The notes beneath the pieces are model-generated. The model was not told the DNA's origin and ran no database searches. It saw nothing but the letters and a program-made list of their open reading frames with translations. From Clostridiales bacterium (GTDB lineage Bacteria; Bacillota; Clostridia; Peptostreptococcales; Acidaminobacteraceae), in NCBI GenBank assembly GCA_021107455.1, contig JAIOSU010000067.1, positions 1 to 33,121 of the forward strand: a stretch of 33,121 nt of DNA. Reading direction: 5' to 3'. Positions 4,220 through 17,496 of the stretch are shown here, piece after piece. The translations under genes and the position numbers were made by a program. Each line of letters starts with the position of its first letter. The first letter of the stretch is position 1.

Positions 4220-4924
4220 TTATTCCTTTGAGCCGATGAAAGGCTCAGTAGCATCCAGAATTTTCTGTGTCACTTCAGGGTTGATTTTACCGTCGTGGTC
4301 CAGTGCGCAATCGTTGAAATCAATTCTAACCTTCGGACAAAGATCGAAAGCCTCATACCAAGCTTCATAGTTGCGTCTCAAATCTTCCATATAATCCCTT
4401 GGAATAGTATCCCCTTCAGTTGAACGGGCACGATTTCTGATTCTTTGCATAGCCGTATCCACAGTGACGTCAATATAAATCAGAACCTCCGGTGGATTGA
4501 TATGCTGTAGCATGTTGTGTAGAAGATCCCTATAGATTTCAAACTCATCTTCCGTCATTTCTCCACGATCATGAATGGTTTTTGCAAAGATTTCATCACC
4601 ATAAATGGAGCGATCCAATATGGCTGAATCCCCATCCTTTTCTATGCGTTTCAAATCCTTGAAGCGATCATTCAGAAACATCACTTGAATGATGGCACTC
4701 CATCTCTCAGGATTGGCGTAGAAAAGATCCAACATCCTTTGTGCTCTGGAATCTTTTCCATCGTCCTTGAGCTCTTGATAGAGCGGCACATCAAGCTTCT
4801 CACTTAAAAAATGTCCCACTGTACTTTTTCCCGCACCGATGATGCCATCTATAACTATCGCCATATTATGATTAATGCCTCCGTCTTTAAAATTGTTTTT
4901 ATCGTTGACCGCAAACCTACTCAT
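4220..4924 (-). CDS. Deoxynucleoside kinase (dAK/dGK/dCK family)
   Basis: Predicted to phosphorylate deoxyadenosine, deoxyguanosine or deoxycytidine in the salvage of DNA precursors. The P-loop GIIGAGKST lies at residues 28-35, and the family DRS motif appears in AILDRSIYGDEIF; RIRNRARS is the arginine-rich lid region. I placed the start at ATG 4924, which overlaps the mnmA stop by eight bases and has AGAGG at good spacing. An internal ATG at 4864, giving MAIVIDG at the N-terminus, fits the family length better but its GGAGG lies 13 bases away. The frame stays open to 5023 inside mnmA, but that extension has no support. Base specificity is not readable from the sequence. Confidence 0.85.
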   Translation of the reverse strand: MSRFAVNDKNNFKDGGINHNMAIVIDGIIGAGKSTVGHFLSEKLDVPLYQELKDDGKDSRAQRMLDLFYANPERWSAIIQVMFLNDRFKDLKRIEKDGDSAILDRSIYGDEIFAKTIHDRGEMTEDEFEIYRDLLHNMLQHINPPEVLIYIDVTVDTAMQRIRNRARSTEGDTIPRDYMEDLRRNYEAWYEAFDLCPKVRIDFNDCALDHDGKINPEVTQKILDATEPFIGSKE

Positions 4925-6023
4925 TGCCTTTTCCTCTGATGATTGTTCCACCGCCCACGAGCCACTGATCTTTATAGAATACAACTGCCTGACCTGGTGT
5001 GATGGCTCTTTGAGGATCATCAAATATCACTCTGACCCGATCACCTTCCGGATATAAAGTACATGGAGCCTCTTTTGCACTATATCTTACTTTTGCTGTA
5101 CATCTATAGGCTTCTTCTAATTGATCAAATAAAATGAAGTTGTTTTGATCTGAAACAAGCTCACTTTTAAACACATCTGAATTCTCACCAAGAGTCACAA
5201 CGTTGCTTGTCGTATCAATATCGATGACATACATAGGCTTTCCAAAAGTCACGCCGAGGCCTTTCCTTTGGCCAATTGTGTAGTTTACAATTCCTTGGTG
5301 TTTGCCCAGGACTTCACCGTCTTTTCCTACAAATGCACCTTCTTCAATCGCCATATCACTATTGCGTTTGAGGAAACCCACGTAGTCCTGATCCGGTACA
5401 AAACAAATTTCCTGAGAGTCAGATTTTTGTGACATCTGAACATCAAATTGTGCAGCCACTTTTCTTACATCATCTTTGGACTCAAAATCACCAAGTGGCA
5501 TCAGTATATGCTTTAGCTGATCTTGAGTCAGGTTATAAAGCGCATATGTTTGATCTTTCTCCACCGCATTTGATTTCTCTATAGTATAGCGACCAAACTC
5601 TTCATTAAATTGGATTTTCGCATAATGCCCTGTTGCGACATAATAAGCGCCAAGTTGATGAGCTTTATCCAATAGAGCTTCAAATTTCACATACTTGTTA
5701 CATGCAATACAAGGATTTGGAGTTTCCCCCTTTTGATACGAATCGATGAAATAATCGACAACAGTTGTCTTAAAGACCGCTTTGAAATCCAGCGCATAAA
5801 ATGGAATTCCGATTTGCGCACACACTCTCCTAGCATCTTCTGCCGATGAAAGGCTGCAACAGCCACCATCTTTCTCGAAGTGTGCTTCTTCAAGGGCATC
5901 ATCCTGCCACAGGCGCATATTGACACCAATGACGTCATAACCCATTTCTTTCAATTTAAAGGCGGCGACAGTACTGTCCACTCCACCGCTCATGCCTACT
6001 ACAACTCTATTATTCTTAACCAT
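4917..6023 (-). CDS. mnmA: tRNA 2-thiouridine(34) synthase MnmA
   Basis: Adenylates U34 of tRNA-Lys, -Glu and -Gln and replaces its 2-oxygen with sulfur delivered as persulfide by a cysteine desulfurase. The PP-loop SGGVDS is at residues 12-17. The catalytic cysteines are Cys105 (in NPCIACN) and Cys207 (in SQEICF); TGHYAKI and YTIGQRKGLG are also family signatures. It is 368 residues, full length, and appears intact. It starts three bases after the end of the desulfurase gene and overlaps the kinase start, so the genes are co-transcribed. This matches the yrvO-mnmA pairing known in Bacillus, where the desulfurase is a dedicated sulfur donor; here that partner is broken, so sulfur must come from another enzyme. 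Confidence 0.96.
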   Translation of the reverse strand: MVKNNRVVVGMSGGVDSTVAAFKLKEMGYDVIGVNMRLWQDDALEEAHFEKDGGCCSLSSAEDARRVCAQIGIPFYALDFKAVFKTTVVDYFIDSYQKGETPNPCIACNKYVKFEALLDKAHQLGAYYVATGHYAKIQFNEEFGRYTIEKSNAVEKDQTYALYNLTQDQLKHILMPLGDFESKDDVRKVAAQFDVQMSQKSDSQEICFVPDQDYVGFLKRNSDMAIEEGAFVGKDGEVLGKHQGIVNYTIGQRKGLGVTFGKPMYVIDIDTTSNVVTLGENSDVFKSELVSDQNNFILFDQLEEAYRCTAKVRYSAKEAPCTLYPEGDRVRVIFDDPQRAITPGQAVVFYKDQWLVGGGTIIRGKGNE

Positions 6024-6026
6024 AAT

Positions 6027-7105
6027 TTATCCTTTCAATATCCTTTCAGTAGTCTCAATCAGTTGATCGATCTCATCGGTTGTCGTCGGTAACCCCATTG
6101 AGAATCTCACACAACGACTTGCCATAACCGGATCCATTCCAATCGCCAAAAGTACATGTGAAGCAGAGATCGCTCCAGAGCTACACGCTGAACCACTGGA
6201 TACACATATTCCTTCAAAGTCATATTGTATGACCAGTCCATCGCCATCCCTTGTCGGGAAATTGAAACAGACTATAGCCGGATGGCTACCCTCTTGCTCA
6301 CCAATGACTGAAAGACCCGCATCAATCTTCAGCAGACCATCAATCAATCTTGACTTTAGTGATTTCAGGTGTCTGATATGATTATCAAGGTTGCTTTCAG
6401 AGATCTCAATGGCTTTTCCAAAACCTGTGATAGCTATATCGTCGATTTCTTCTGCACAAATTGAATAGCCATGGTTCTGATCTTTTGTATAAAGCGCACC
6501 ACAACCTTTTGGACCATAAATCTTATGAGCAGAAAATACCATTGTATCCGCACCTATCTTTGAGATGTCAATCACAGCTTTTCCAAGCGCTTGAACTGCA
6601 TCCACATGAAAAGCAATTTCCTTGTCATTTAAAAATTCACCAAGCGCTTCTACGCGTTGTTAAAAAACATGACCGCGACTAAAATGGTATCATTTGTGAC
6701 TAGTTTTTTAGCCGCCTCAAGATCGATGATTCCTGCTGGTGACACCGGTAATTTCACAACTTCGAATCCTTCTGTTTCTAGTGCGGTGAAAACATTTAGT
6801 ACGGAAGGATGCTCGATTCCCGATACCAAAAGTCGTTTCCACCTATGTCTTCCTCTATTAGCGTGTTCGCGAATCGCAAGGTTATTAGCCTCTGTCCCAC
6901 TTGCTGTGAAAATGACATCACCTGATTTTGCATTGATGGCATCCATGAGTCTATATTTTGTCCTATCCATTTGGATTTTTATATATTTTGAACTTTGCCT
7001 ATCAAAAAAAACTTCTGATGAATACTCATTGAGCATCACTTCGAGTACTTCTTGGTCCACAGGAGTTGTGGCGGCATAGTCCATATAAATCTTATTATTA
7101 ATCAT
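6027..7105 (-). pseudogene. Cysteine desulfurase (NifS/IscS family), frameshifted and missing PLP-site motifs
   Basis: A PLP enzyme that takes sulfur from cysteine, expected here to serve MnmA. The reading frame begins at ATG 7105 with GAGGA upstream and stops at 6650 after VAVMFFNNA; homology continues in another frame from 6653 (VEALGEF, then HVDAVQALGK) to 6027. At the junction (6654/6655) the usual NNEIGTIQP is cut after NN: about 21 bases are replaced by GC, a net loss of about 19. Two further conserved stretches are abnormal: FGNPSS reads FFDRQSS, and the GGGQE-RSGT loop after GPKGCGALY is about ten residues short. The PLP lysine (SAHKIYGPKG), cysteine (SSGSACSSG) and His (SGIEHPS) remain. 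Sequencing or assembly error at 6654 cannot be excluded, but would not explain all three sites. Confidence 0.85.
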
Positions 7106-7149: not shown

Positions 7150-7178
7150 AGTATACCTTCTCAGGCACCTCCTGTCAA
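7150..7178 (-). promoter_or_regulatory. Sigma-A promoter of the desulfurase-mnmA-kinase-phosphoesterase operon
   Basis: Minus strand: a perfect TTGACA (7178-7173), a 17-base spacer, and TATACT (7155-7150). The predicted start is near 7143, 38 bases before the first ATG. This is one of the best promoter matches in the window. Confidence 0.75.
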
Positions 7179-7489: not shown

Positions 7490-8623
7490 ATGCAGGATAT
7501 TATTGCAAAGCTTAAAAATTGGATCATACTTTCACTCAGTGATATCAAGAATATAAGATCCTCCATAGAAGAACAGTACAGCAACTATTCCTCACAAGAA
7601 CGTGCCAAGCATTTCGCCGCAGCAGTTCATAAAGTACTGGACAAACATCTGGACGGAATCTCCACAGATCAGCGAGATTCTCTTAAAAAGGAAATCATCA
7701 GCAGCACCATACTTAAAAACATTGAGTCCATAACAAAATTTGATGTTTTCACATCAATCTTTGAATTGGACCTCGATAATGATACACAAGTTACACTCGC
7801 AAAAAATTGGTTGAAGGAAAGCGAAAAAATTGTTGTGAAGGAAGACGAAATCAGATCATTCCTCAATTTTTATGATCAAGCGCCTTCCGTAATCAAAAAG
7901 CGTACTGATTTCAAACCTATTTGGGTCATTTTAAGTATATTAACACTGATGGTCATTGTCATTGGATCCATAATCAAATTTACGCCTACTGAAAAAACAC
8001 CCCCACTAGTGACATCGAAGCCTTTTGAAATTGTCAAAAGAAATTATGTGGAATCATTTCCAGCCTTCGGTTTAATCAATACATTTCATATCATATCAGA
8101 AATCAACTATACCGATAACGACGAACAGGTGGGATTCATTCTTCATTATCAAGTGTTTCATCCGTTTTTCAAACAACGTGAATTCCCATACCCCTATCGA
8201 ATCATAAATTATTTTTCTTTAGTGGATTATATCAAGACCACACGCAACGGTGCCATGGCTGAACCTCAACATTTCAATATGGTCATGTCCCTTGCACGGA
8301 TTAATGATATCGATCCACTCTTATTATTTGCAATCATTGGTCATGAGCAAGCTTTTGTACCTGTTGGTCACACCTATGCCCTCATGATGGTGAACAACCC
8401 TTACAATGTTTATAATAATTGGTGGGATTACAACACTACACTTAGTGACAGCACTACAATTGCCATCAATACGATAAAGAATCGTATGCTCTCGCTGCCT
8501 GCCGATACCGATCCACTTTTATGGTTGAATGGCATTTACGCCGAAGATCCTTACTGGCACATTGGGGTCGGATTAATTTATGGTCAATTGGATAAAATTG
8601 CAAGTGTTAAACGCATTATATAG
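7490..8623 (+). CDS. Membrane protein with lysozyme-like (glucosaminidase/transglycosylase) C-terminal domain
   Basis: 377 residues with one membrane helix in the middle (about 143-163). Residues 1-140 are charged, helical and probably cytoplasmic; residues 170-377 would lie outside. The outer part has lysozyme-fold-like features: IDPLLLFAIIGHEQ, with Glu286 a candidate catalytic acid, NNPYNVYNNWWDY, and near the C-terminus YAEDPYWHIGVGLIYGQL, which resembles the final helix of phage-tail and wall glycosidases (YAEDPNW...). I infer a membrane-tethered wall hydrolase; no wall-binding repeats are seen. The start has GGTGGTGA just upstream. It is followed after 34 bases by a small gene, probably co-transcribed. 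The Fur box upstream may control it. Function is uncertain and the arrangement is unfamiliar to me. Confidence 0.7.
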   Translation: MQDIIAKLKNWIILSLSDIKNIRSSIEEQYSNYSSQERAKHFAAAVHKVLDKHLDGISTDQRDSLKKEIISSTILKNIESITKFDVFTSIFELDLDNDTQVTLAKNWLKESEKIVVKEDEIRSFLNFYDQAPSVIKKRTDFKPIWVILSILTLMVIVIGSIIKFTPTEKTPPLVTSKPFEIVKRNYVESFPAFGLINTFHIISEINYTDNDEQVGFILHYQVFHPFFKQREFPYPYRIINYFSLVDYIKTTRNGAMAEPQHFNMVMSLARINDIDPLLLFAIIGHEQAFVPVGHTYALMMVNNPYNVYNNWWDYNTTLSDSTTIAINTIKNRMLSLPADTDPLLWLNGIYAEDPYWHIGVGLIYGQLDKIASVKRII

Positions 8624-8657
8624 GGTATTTAATCTATAAGTCTAGACAAGGAGTGTG

Positions 8658-8957
8658 ATGTCAATGCCTTATAGAGGTACAAATACCAAACGGAATGTTG
8701 TACATGACAAAAGTCGTGGCACTATCCGAGAAGAGTCACGGGCTCATTTTTTAAATGAAAAAAAAGAGCATGAACACGAATTAAGCGAAGCACGCACTAG
8801 GATTCAGAAACTGATGAACGAAGGTTTCAGATATGAGAAAAGAGAGGACCGAAATCATCAGGTCTATGTGTACTTTGTCAATGATAACAGAGAAAGGGAA
8901 GTGATTGAACTCAAGTTCCCTATAAATGCGGATGTTTTGAAAGAGTATTTGCATTAA
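8658..8957 (+). CDS. Small charged protein of unknown function
   Basis: About 99 residues, rich in Arg, Lys and Glu, with no signal peptide or membrane helix, so probably cytoplasmic. Residues 25-60 (EESRAHFLNEKKEHEHELS and after) look like a long charged helix or coiled coil; the C-terminal third, with VYVYFVNDNREREVIELKF, looks like a small beta unit. AAGGAG at 8648-8653 serves one of three close in-frame starts: GTG 8655, ATG 8658 or ATG 8664; ATG 8664 has the most normal spacing, ATG 8658 is given here. It follows the lysozyme-like gene by 34 bases and ends in the large hairpin at 8962. I do not recognise the family. Confidence 0.7.
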   Translation: MSMPYRGTNTKRNVVHDKSRGTIREESRAHFLNEKKEHEHELSEARTRIQKLMNEGFRYEKREDRNHQVYVYFVNDNREREVIELKFPINADVLKEYLH

Positions 8958-15109: not shown

Positions 15110-17335
15110 TCAAATCCTCTCGTGAAAGGTTCTGCCTATGACTTCAAGTTGTTGTTCCCTGTTCAGTCTATGAAAATCGACCGCATAACCTGAGACGCGA
15201 ATTGTGAGTGAAGGATGTCTGTCTGGATGCTCCATGGCTTCAATCAATTTATCCTTACTGAGAACATTCACATTGAGATGATGCGCACCAGAGGTAAAAT
15301 AGCCTTCCAGCAATGCGACCAAGTTCGATACTTTGTCGGATTCTGTTCTCCCGAGCGTCCCAGGAGTGACAGAGAACGTGCACGAAATACCGTCTTTACA
15401 GCTTGAATACGGGAGCTTAGCGACGGAGTTGAGTGCTGCAACTGCTCCATTTCTCTCTCTCCCCCGCATAGGATTTGCTCCAGGTGCGAAAGGTTCCCCT
15501 TTTCTTCTTCCATCAGGCGTATTGCCGGTCTTAAGACCATAAACGACATTTGAAGTAATCGTCAACAATGATAGTGTGTGCTCAGAGTTTCTGTAAGTGT
15601 CGTACTTCGACAGTTTTTCATGAAATGACTTTGAAAGAGCTGTTGCAATATGGTCAACACGATCATCATCATTACCGAAGACTGGGAACTCACCTTCATT
15701 AATATAATCAGTGATCCAGCCTTGGTCATTTCTCAAAGGGGTCACTTTTGAATGTTTTATTGCTGAAAGCGAGTCAGCAACCACACTGAGTCCTGCGATT
15801 CCAAAAGCCATATAGCGATGGACATTCGTATCATGCAGAGCCATCTGAGTTTTCTCATAAGCATATTTGTCGTGCATGTAGTGAATCACATTCATGGTGC
15901 CAACATATTGTTCACATAACCAGTCCATATAAAGATCAAAACGTTTCATTACCGAGTCGTAATCAAGAATCTGATCATTCAAGACGTCCATTTTGGGACC
16001 AATTTGCTCTCCAGATATTTCATCATAACCGCCATTGAGTGCGAGCAGGAAAACTTTAGGGAGATTGCATCTGGCTCCAAAGAATTGCATTTCCTTTCCT
16101 ATTCTCATGGCGGATACGCAGCAGGCGATACCGTAATCATCTCCAAAATTCGGCCTCATGAGGTCATCATTTTCATATTGAATTGCATCAGTCTTTATTG
16201 AAATAACCGCGCAATATGCTTTGAAAGGTTCGGGCAGGTCTTTTGACCAAAGGACTGTCAGATTCGGTTCTGGCGCCGCACCTAGATTGACAAGTGTATT
16301 CAAGAATCTAAAGGCATTTTTAGTCACTAGCGTGCCCCCACCTATCGACATTCCACCCACCGCTTCAGTGATCCATAACGGATCTCCTGCGAATAATTCA
16401 TTATAATCCGGCGTTCTGAGTTGTCTGGCCATACGCAATTTAATGATGAAATCATCTATCAGTTCCTGAGCGTCTTTTTCAGAAAGAGCACCACTTAAAA
16501 GGTCTCTTTCGATATAAATATCCAGAAATCCTCCGACTCTTCCGAGCGACATGGCTGCCCCATTTTGCTCTTTTATGGCACCAAGATATCCATAGTATGT
16601 CCATTGTATGGCCTCGAGTGAATTCTCAGCAGGACGTCCTATATCATGTCCATAAGCTTTTGCCATATCTTTCAATTTATCCAGAAAATCAAGTTGCCTG
16701 AAGAGTTCTTCCATCAAACGAATATTCTCTTCATTCATCGGTTGCTCAGACAATTCTTTTTGATCCACTTTTTTGAACTCCACCAACCGATCAATACCAT
16801 AAAGGGCTACTCTGCGGTAATCCCCTATGATGCGTCCTCTTCCATAGGCATCTGGAAGACCAGTGATCAGACCACTTCGTCTCAGTTTTTTCATGGTATC
16901 GCTATAGGCTCTGAATACACCGTCGTTATGTGTTGTCTTGAACGAAAACTGTTCTTCAACCTGGTCTGACAATTTGTACCCATAAGCCTCACAGGCATCT
17001 CTTGCCATTCGTATACCGCCAAAAGGGTTCACACTTCTCTTCAGTGGAGCATCGGTCTGAAGCCCGACTATTTTTTCTAGAGCCTCATCAATAAAGCCAG
17101 GTTCGTAACTGAGTAGACTGGATACCCGCTCGGTGTCAATGTCGAGAACACCGCCTCTCAATTGTTCCTCAGCCATCAGAGACGTCACCTTACCCCAAAG
17201 TATTTCTGTTCGCTCTGTCGGACCCTCCAAAAACGATTCGTCGCCATAATAGGGTGACACGTTGTTTACAATGAAATCTCTGACATCCACTTGTTCCTTC
17301 CACTTGGTTCCCTTAAATCCATTCCATGCCTGCAT
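15110..17335 (-). CDS. pflB: Formate C-acetyltransferase (pyruvate formate-lyase)
   Basis: Glycyl-radical enzyme converting pyruvate and CoA to acetyl-CoA and formate in fermentation. The paired catalytic cysteines are Cys405-Cys406 in [11 protein letters not shown]. The radical glycine is Gly716 in RVSGYAV, 25 residues from the C-terminus. At 741 residues it is full length and intact. AGGAGG precedes the ATG. It lies downstream of a ZTP riboswitch with a terminator and upstream of pflA. Formate made here can feed 10-formyl-tetrahydrofolate and so purine synthesis, which explains the riboswitch. Confidence 0.97.
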
Positions 17336-17383: not shown

Positions 17384-17482
17384 AAAAAACCGACACACCT
17401 AGACATATTTATGCCCAGGCGGTCGGCTGTTGATCCTTCTCAATCCCTCGTGGTATTCCACTTTTTCCGCCAGTTTTGAGAA
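17384..17482 (-). promoter_or_regulatory. ZTP (pfl motif) riboswitch with transcription terminator
   Basis: On the minus strand, P1 TTCTCAA pairs with TTGAGAA and encloses ACTGGCGG, the P2 hairpin GTGG-AATA-CCAC and GAGGGA; the 3' domain carries the hallmark CCGCCTGGGCA (17422-17412). The same bases pair with ATGTCTAGGTGTGTCGG to make a terminator stem followed by TTTTTT (17389-17384). Aptamer and terminator are therefore mutually exclusive, giving an ON switch when ZTP/ZMP rises (10-formyl-THF shortage). It begins about 15 bases after the tkt stop and controls pflB-pflA. Confidence 0.88.
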
Positions 17483-17496
17483 TTCTTTTTATTGAT

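Follow-up and report, generated by a model that had tools for sequence, protein, structure and literature searches.

Genes and features at the locus

Directly upstream of mnmA, the window analysed here (the whole stretch of 33,121 nucleotides, part of a draft genome of 333 contigs) carries a nifS-like gene whose reading frame is interrupted, preceded by a promoter-like site and a candidate small-RNA gene (Table 1). The first-pass annotation had described this frame as stopping after NNA with homology resuming in another frame, and this is what we find: the 5' part ends with VMFFNNA and a stop codon, and VEALGEF takes up at position 6653 in a different frame. Its estimate of around 19 lost bases was likewise accurate, since exactly 19 nt are absent at one place relative to the intact gene of the same-genus genome G002 (Bacillota isolate LH_M70); an alignment to that gene reveals no other indel inside the window gene. 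The PLP lysine, the catalytic cysteine and the substrate arginine are encoded by the 3' part, and the lysine, histidine and active cysteine that had been reported to survive are indeed all present across the two parts, as are the aspartate and the glutamine.

Table 1. Features of the nifS-like/mnmA locus (positions in the window).
Feature	Position	Strand	Remarks
mnmA (tRNA 2-thiouridylase), next gene	4917..6023	-	intact frame
nifS-like gene, 3' part, other frame, VEALG to stop	6027..6653	-	PF00266, 63.7 + 41.1 bits
Site of shortened GGGQE-RSGT loop (limits approximate)	6436..6490	-	from alignments; trait of the whole loop-less group
Joint with 19 nt missing after NN, compared with intact relatives	6650..6658	-	NNEIGTRQP in G002 and G001
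nifS-like gene, 5' part	6650..7105	-	151 codons, stop 6652-6650; PF00266, 76.9 bits (cut-off 21.5)
Site of absent GNPSS loop (limits approximate)	6965..7020	-	from alignments; trait of the whole loop-less group
Promoter of nifS-like/mnmA operon, TTGACA-17-TATACT	7150..7178	-	11/12 matches; kept in G002 and G001
Candidate small-RNA gene upstream of nifS-like gene	7376-7209	-	promoter-like site 7412-7384; terminator 7246-7216

The mnmA frame is uninterrupted, as had been stated, and its product is 95% identical to that of G002. The promoter of the nifS-like gene had been called the best of its operon; it does rank first among 10 sites between 3300 and 7500, but these 10 are no more than the 12.5 obtained from shuffles. 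Two mnmA matches in other genomes (G003:C25:23693-24787 and G056:C19:111577-112608) are reported with one in-frame TGA each, and in G003 a frame of 364 aa is listed there.

Intact relatives lack the same two loops

A search with the 192-codon 3' part of the window gene finds single-frame genes of the same genus in G002 (86%), G001 (75%) and G003 (48%), and other genera of the family have matching single-frame genes as well. These relatives read NNEIGTRQP or similar where the window has its gap, and they are without GNPSS and without the GGGQE-RSGT loop. The first-pass annotation had counted both stretches as in-frame damage and regarded the gene as broken at several conserved sites. GNPSS is indeed replaced and the other loop is about ten residues short, but 13 intact relatives share both changes in one open frame, an observation that the annotation itself had said would refute its reading, so neither is a lesion and the gene as given is broken at one site, the frameshift. 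The window's shortened stretch is of the same length as in its two nearest relatives (the match comprises 192 codons on both sides), in which the interval equivalent to residues 218-247 of Escherichia coli IscS has 18 residues, compared with a uniform 28 in the 30 canonical rows. The interrupted frame is specific to the window copy, all 13 related loci having a single open frame.

The 13 intact genes were assembled from a search of 41 genomes of the family, a motif table and, for two loci, the neighbouring small RNA. Counting the window's own, the loop-less locus is present in 14 of the 41 genomes and in 5 of 21 genera, including Fusibacter sp. 3D3 (G019; NCBI taxonomy places Fusibacter in Fusibacteraceae) and Clostridiales bacterium 38-18 (G011); of the other 27 genomes, the 17 that were read in the motif table have a canonical match. 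Across 393 genomes of the order, our profile A4 retrieved 11 loop-less genes at 482-563 bits with the next match at 433.5, and since it missed those of G023 and G047, recovered later through the small RNA, further divergent members in the order are possible. In a contig scan of 80 loci among the matches listed, both motifs are absent next to mnmA in G002, G011 and G019; some further rows did not fit the narrow motif patterns either, but those of them that we aligned had the loops. The genetic setting is constant: in all 13 relatives, as in the window, the desulfurase gene is directly upstream of mnmA, from 32 nt of overlap to 64 nt apart in the annotated frames. MnmA supports the same grouping, being 70-100% identical to the window's across the 14 loop-less genomes and 62% identical in the next genome.

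The two loops are near-invariant in canonical enzymes and consistently absent from this group (GNxSS in 0/13 loop-less versus 33/34 canonical rows, GGxQE and RxGT each in 0/13 versus 34/34). The catalytic residues by which class I is recognised are present in 13/13, namely the PLP lysine K206 with H104, D180 and Q183, the cysteine C328 in a long loop, and N155 and R354 (E. coli IscS numbers); N154, E156, S203 and H205 are equally kept, and position 76 is Thr or Ser. Which letters remain in the altered stretches depends on the alignment, with agreement in 4/13 at most (E236 in 4/13, T243 in 3/13). An arginine in GTRQP looked like a marker of the clade at first (6/6), then stood at 10/11 with lysine allowed and finally at 10/13, so it does not define the group. 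Scored against the 25 NCBIfam families listed, the G002 protein stays under every curated cut-off, the best being TIGR03402 (NifS) with 322.3 versus 530.75 bits, and the titles found in our literature search include none on a loop-less MnmA-linked desulfurase.

Behind Arg354, the tail that holds the IscU site measures 23-30 residues in 11 loop-less rows and 34-51 in 24 of 30 canonical rows. Such a short tail would also weaken IscU binding, and it is not specific to the group, because the other 6 canonical rows are equally short, three of them mnmA-adjacent.

Phylogeny and predicted structure

In a tree of 49 rows, a branch with 100/100 support separates all 14 loop-less rows (including the window's 3' part) from the canonical ones. 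For 12 of the 14, support is 99 in a quick tree of 110 rows; both trees are midpoint-rooted and several of their branches are long. The loop-less group itself evolves fast and forms long branches in the 49-row tree. Beside it, on the canonical side, branch the enzymes of the Acidaminobacter-type genomes G009, G054 and G055, which belong to the same family and occupy the same site before mnmA but keep their loops. Because intact relatives beside mnmA have both altered stretches, we interpret them as the mark of a lineage branch and not as damage. On the sequences compared here, the locus appears to hold a lineage-bound variant of a familiar enzyme, plus one putative lesion in the window's genome sequence.

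An AlphaFold monomer of the G002 protein (mean pLDDT 92.2) has IscS as its best structural match (Z 48, rmsd 1.8 over 355 residues, 37% identity). Its weak blocks (64, 69-77 and 58) coincide with the Cys loop and with what is left of the two missing loops, and the model says little about the lost loops since its alignment of 60 rows includes only 3 loop-less ones.

Selection and the nature of the 19-nt loss

Between the window and G002, dN/dS is 0.112 for the 5' part and 0.139 for the 3' part, compared to 0.106 and 0.142 between G002 and G001, which are both intact; these values are based on three genomes, and dS is near saturation toward G001. The window and G002 branches carry 16 amino acid changes each, distributed over the 5' and 3' parts as 4 and 12 in the window and as 8 and 8 in G002; for mnmA, the same branches have 6 and 7. 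The nifS-like gene thus evolves faster than mnmA (dN/dS of 0.03-0.04) yet is constrained, and neither dN/dS nor branch counts indicate relaxed selection in the window copy relative to its intact sister G002. It follows that the 19-nt loss is either very recent or not real, and it may be a mutation or an assembly error with about equal plausibility.

If the loss is real—a reading to which we give an even chance—the window copy is a very recent pseudogene, and its MnmA obtains sulfur from the canonical IscS or from another desulfurase. The frame is interrupted in the sequence as given, relatives have a canonical IscS with NifU, and the draft contains other desulfurases; on the other hand, the gene lacks further lesions, its constraint is unrelaxed, and the canonical iscS was not found in the draft, where its place falls at a contig end. 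Nearly as plausible is an error of assembly or consensus in a genome that has an intact loop-less gene. Such an error would fit a single lesion under unrelaxed selection behind a conserved promoter, in a draft of many contigs and with all 13 relatives intact. A clean loss of 19 nt is nevertheless unlike the usual single-base error, the joint lacks microhomology, and querying the draft with a 201-nt stretch returned no second copy or variant.

That the window gene gives rise to a complete protein by programmed frameshifting is very improbable. Both parts do look constrained, but the relatives need no shift, and the absent 19 nt include the codons of E156 (13/13 in relatives) and G158 (11/11), so a frameshift cannot restore the active site from which the loss has deleted residues. 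Whether mutation or artefact, the frameshift of the window is by itself of little consequence. The wider caution is that motif-based annotation would label a constrained lineage-specific gene as decayed.

Other desulfurases in the same genomes

A second NifS-like match (358-375 bits) is found in 13/13 loop-less relatives, with a NifU gene directly beside it in all 11 genomes tested, and the loops can be read in this second gene in four (G001, G003, G023 and G047). The first-pass annotation had suggested looking for a second cysteine desulfurase, and desulfurase-like genes are present in the window draft on contigs C284, C155 and C238: C284 has a SufS-like gene with a NifU-type gene alongside, and the gene on C155 stands before what we take, from its letters, to be thiI. 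The canonical iscS and its NifU were not found among the 333 contigs. Contig C202 starts just past the place of canonical iscS in G001 synteny, and no contig was identified for the alaS side, so a gap explains the missing gene as well as a loss, and a loss in the window genome is not claimed. A repeat of ~35-40 nt occurs in both orientations in this genome (G000), at C202 1-405, C286 ~2123 and C73 ~21903.

The view that MnmA depends on another supply of sulfur requires the 19-nt loss to be genuine, and the unrelaxed selection on the window gene speaks against such a loss. Another sulfur source is likely to be available in any case, given the canonical NifS-like gene elsewhere in 13/13 relatives.

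A desulfurase probably dedicated to MnmA

We consider it likely that this loop-less class I-like group, intact and constrained beside mnmA in the relatives, sulfurates MnmA, with the 19-nt loss of the window copy being recent or an artefact. In Bacillus subtilis, the desulfurase YrvO and MnmA produce s2U by themselves, without Tus proteins (PMC5372745, PMC11784392). Like the loop-less gene, yrvO is class I-like and directly upstream of mnmA, and by this analogy the loop-less enzyme is most likely dedicated to MnmA. The likeness does not extend to the loops: GNPSS and RxGT are kept in the mnmA-adjacent Bacillales relatives L106 and L120 (YrvO itself was outside the alignment), while the loop-less group has neither.

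We propose that the enzyme would strip sulfur from cysteine, form a persulfide on its own cysteine in the usual way and transfer it directly to MnmA to make s2U34 in tRNA, in the manner of YrvO. It shares the PLP, substrate and Cys residues with E. coli IscS and, according to the model, the fold; it differs in both loops and its short tail and has lost or changed the docking residues around W45-D52 and R220-M239. Mutants of IscS at W45, E49 and D52 lose TusA binding, and those at R220, R223, R225/E227, G234 and R237/M239 weaken or lose the binding of ThiI, CyaY or IscX (PMC2854127). These positions lie within or next to the two segments missing from the loop-less group. The overlap of the lost segments with IscS surfaces for TusA, ThiI, CyaY and IscX suggests a one-client enzyme: loop loss most likely took away a generalist docking surface, and the canonical IscS-IscU pair would be retained elsewhere in the genome.

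It most likely also removed one contact to the PLP phosphate, because T243 of the lost loop is presumably the counterpart of Thr268 of the Thermococcus onnurineus desulfurase. Thr268 is listed there as a ligand of the PLP phosphate (PMC5426080), so desulfurase activity could be reduced. The loop threonine need not be essential, however, given that the descriptions of SspA (PMC7188994) and DndA (PMC3343029) name only ligands of the phosphate at other sites; a literature search on IscS Thr243 found nothing.

It is also conceivable, if unlikely, that the whole loop-less group has no desulfurase activity left and acts as a mere persulfide relay between IscS and MnmA or as a scaffold for MnmA. The loss of motifs that are near-invariant in 34 canonical rows, the fast evolution of the group and the presence of canonical IscS in the same genomes are compatible with such a role, and altered IscS proteins are known (PDB titles name an 'unusual' IscS of Archaeoglobus fulgidus and a D199K mutant). 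Yet the PLP- and cysteine-binding residues that we checked are kept in 13/13, and a mere relay would need the cysteine alone.

SspA (PDB 6M4J), which belongs to the Ssp system of DNA phosphorothioation, has its His99, Asn150, Asp175, Gln178, Ser198, His200, Lys201, Cys314 and Arg340 numbered exactly as in the G002 protein, a comparison by numbers only, and the PADLOC SspA model gives 334 bits. This model is 374 long, so the lack of loops need not be a general trait of SspA. The neighbour of the loop-less gene is mnmA and not an ssp gene; the SspA partner SspD is an ATP pyrophosphatase, much as MnmA is a PP-loop enzyme. Two plasmid records considered as a source of SspA sequence were dropped since neither match lies beside ssp genes.

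Should the loop-less enzymes be active, they would amount to a natural deletion experiment on a hub enzyme, separating the IscS loops needed for catalysis from those that serve partner choice alone and telling whether private sulfur lines emerge by shedding docking surfaces. More tentatively, the Fusibacter/Acidaminobacter desulfurase branch might have become a one-client, private sulfur line to MnmA by deleting the docking surfaces of IscS, leaving Fe-S clusters to the canonical IscS-IscU pair, and the conserved small RNA with its Fur-box-like sequence described below may tie tRNA thiolation to the supply of iron.

A candidate small RNA and neighbouring elements

The 216 nt around the candidate small RNA share 100% identity with G002 and 98% with G001, and the candidate aligns in all 12 first-found loop-less loci. 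At its presumed start (7371-7357 in the window), the sequence TGATAATCATTATCA resembles a Fur box, matching in 13-15 of 15 bases in 12/12. The candidate further carries an anti-SD-like ACTCCTTATA and a C-rich CCCCAAAACGTAAAC core, and its terminator has changes on both sides in 6 of 12 pairs, a value reached by 0 of 500 shuffles. We propose that it may be an iron-sparing RNA under the control of Fur, comparable in its action to FsrA or IsrR (features of IsrR as given in PMC9410917). An Rfam search with the candidate gave no gathering-level match and nothing related up to an E-value of 5, and a literature search on Fusibacter, small RNA and Fur yielded no paper.

Searching the 393 genomes of the order with model R1 of this RNA returned 16 matches, 12 of which are its own building set. 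The further ones are in G023 (upstream of the loop-less gene) and in G047, where the match sits at the end of a contig, plus two weak ones in a different family (G093 and G107). On the plus strand, two genes at 7490-8957 (377 and 100 aa) run divergently from the small RNA and have relatives at the same place in other genomes: both genes in G001 and G011, and the first only in G002 and G023. Farther along the window, a ZMP/ZTP riboswitch (RF01750, 62.8 bits) lies on the minus strand at 17406-17487, upstream of the gene at 15110-17335, which we take from its letters to be pyruvate formate-lyase-like.
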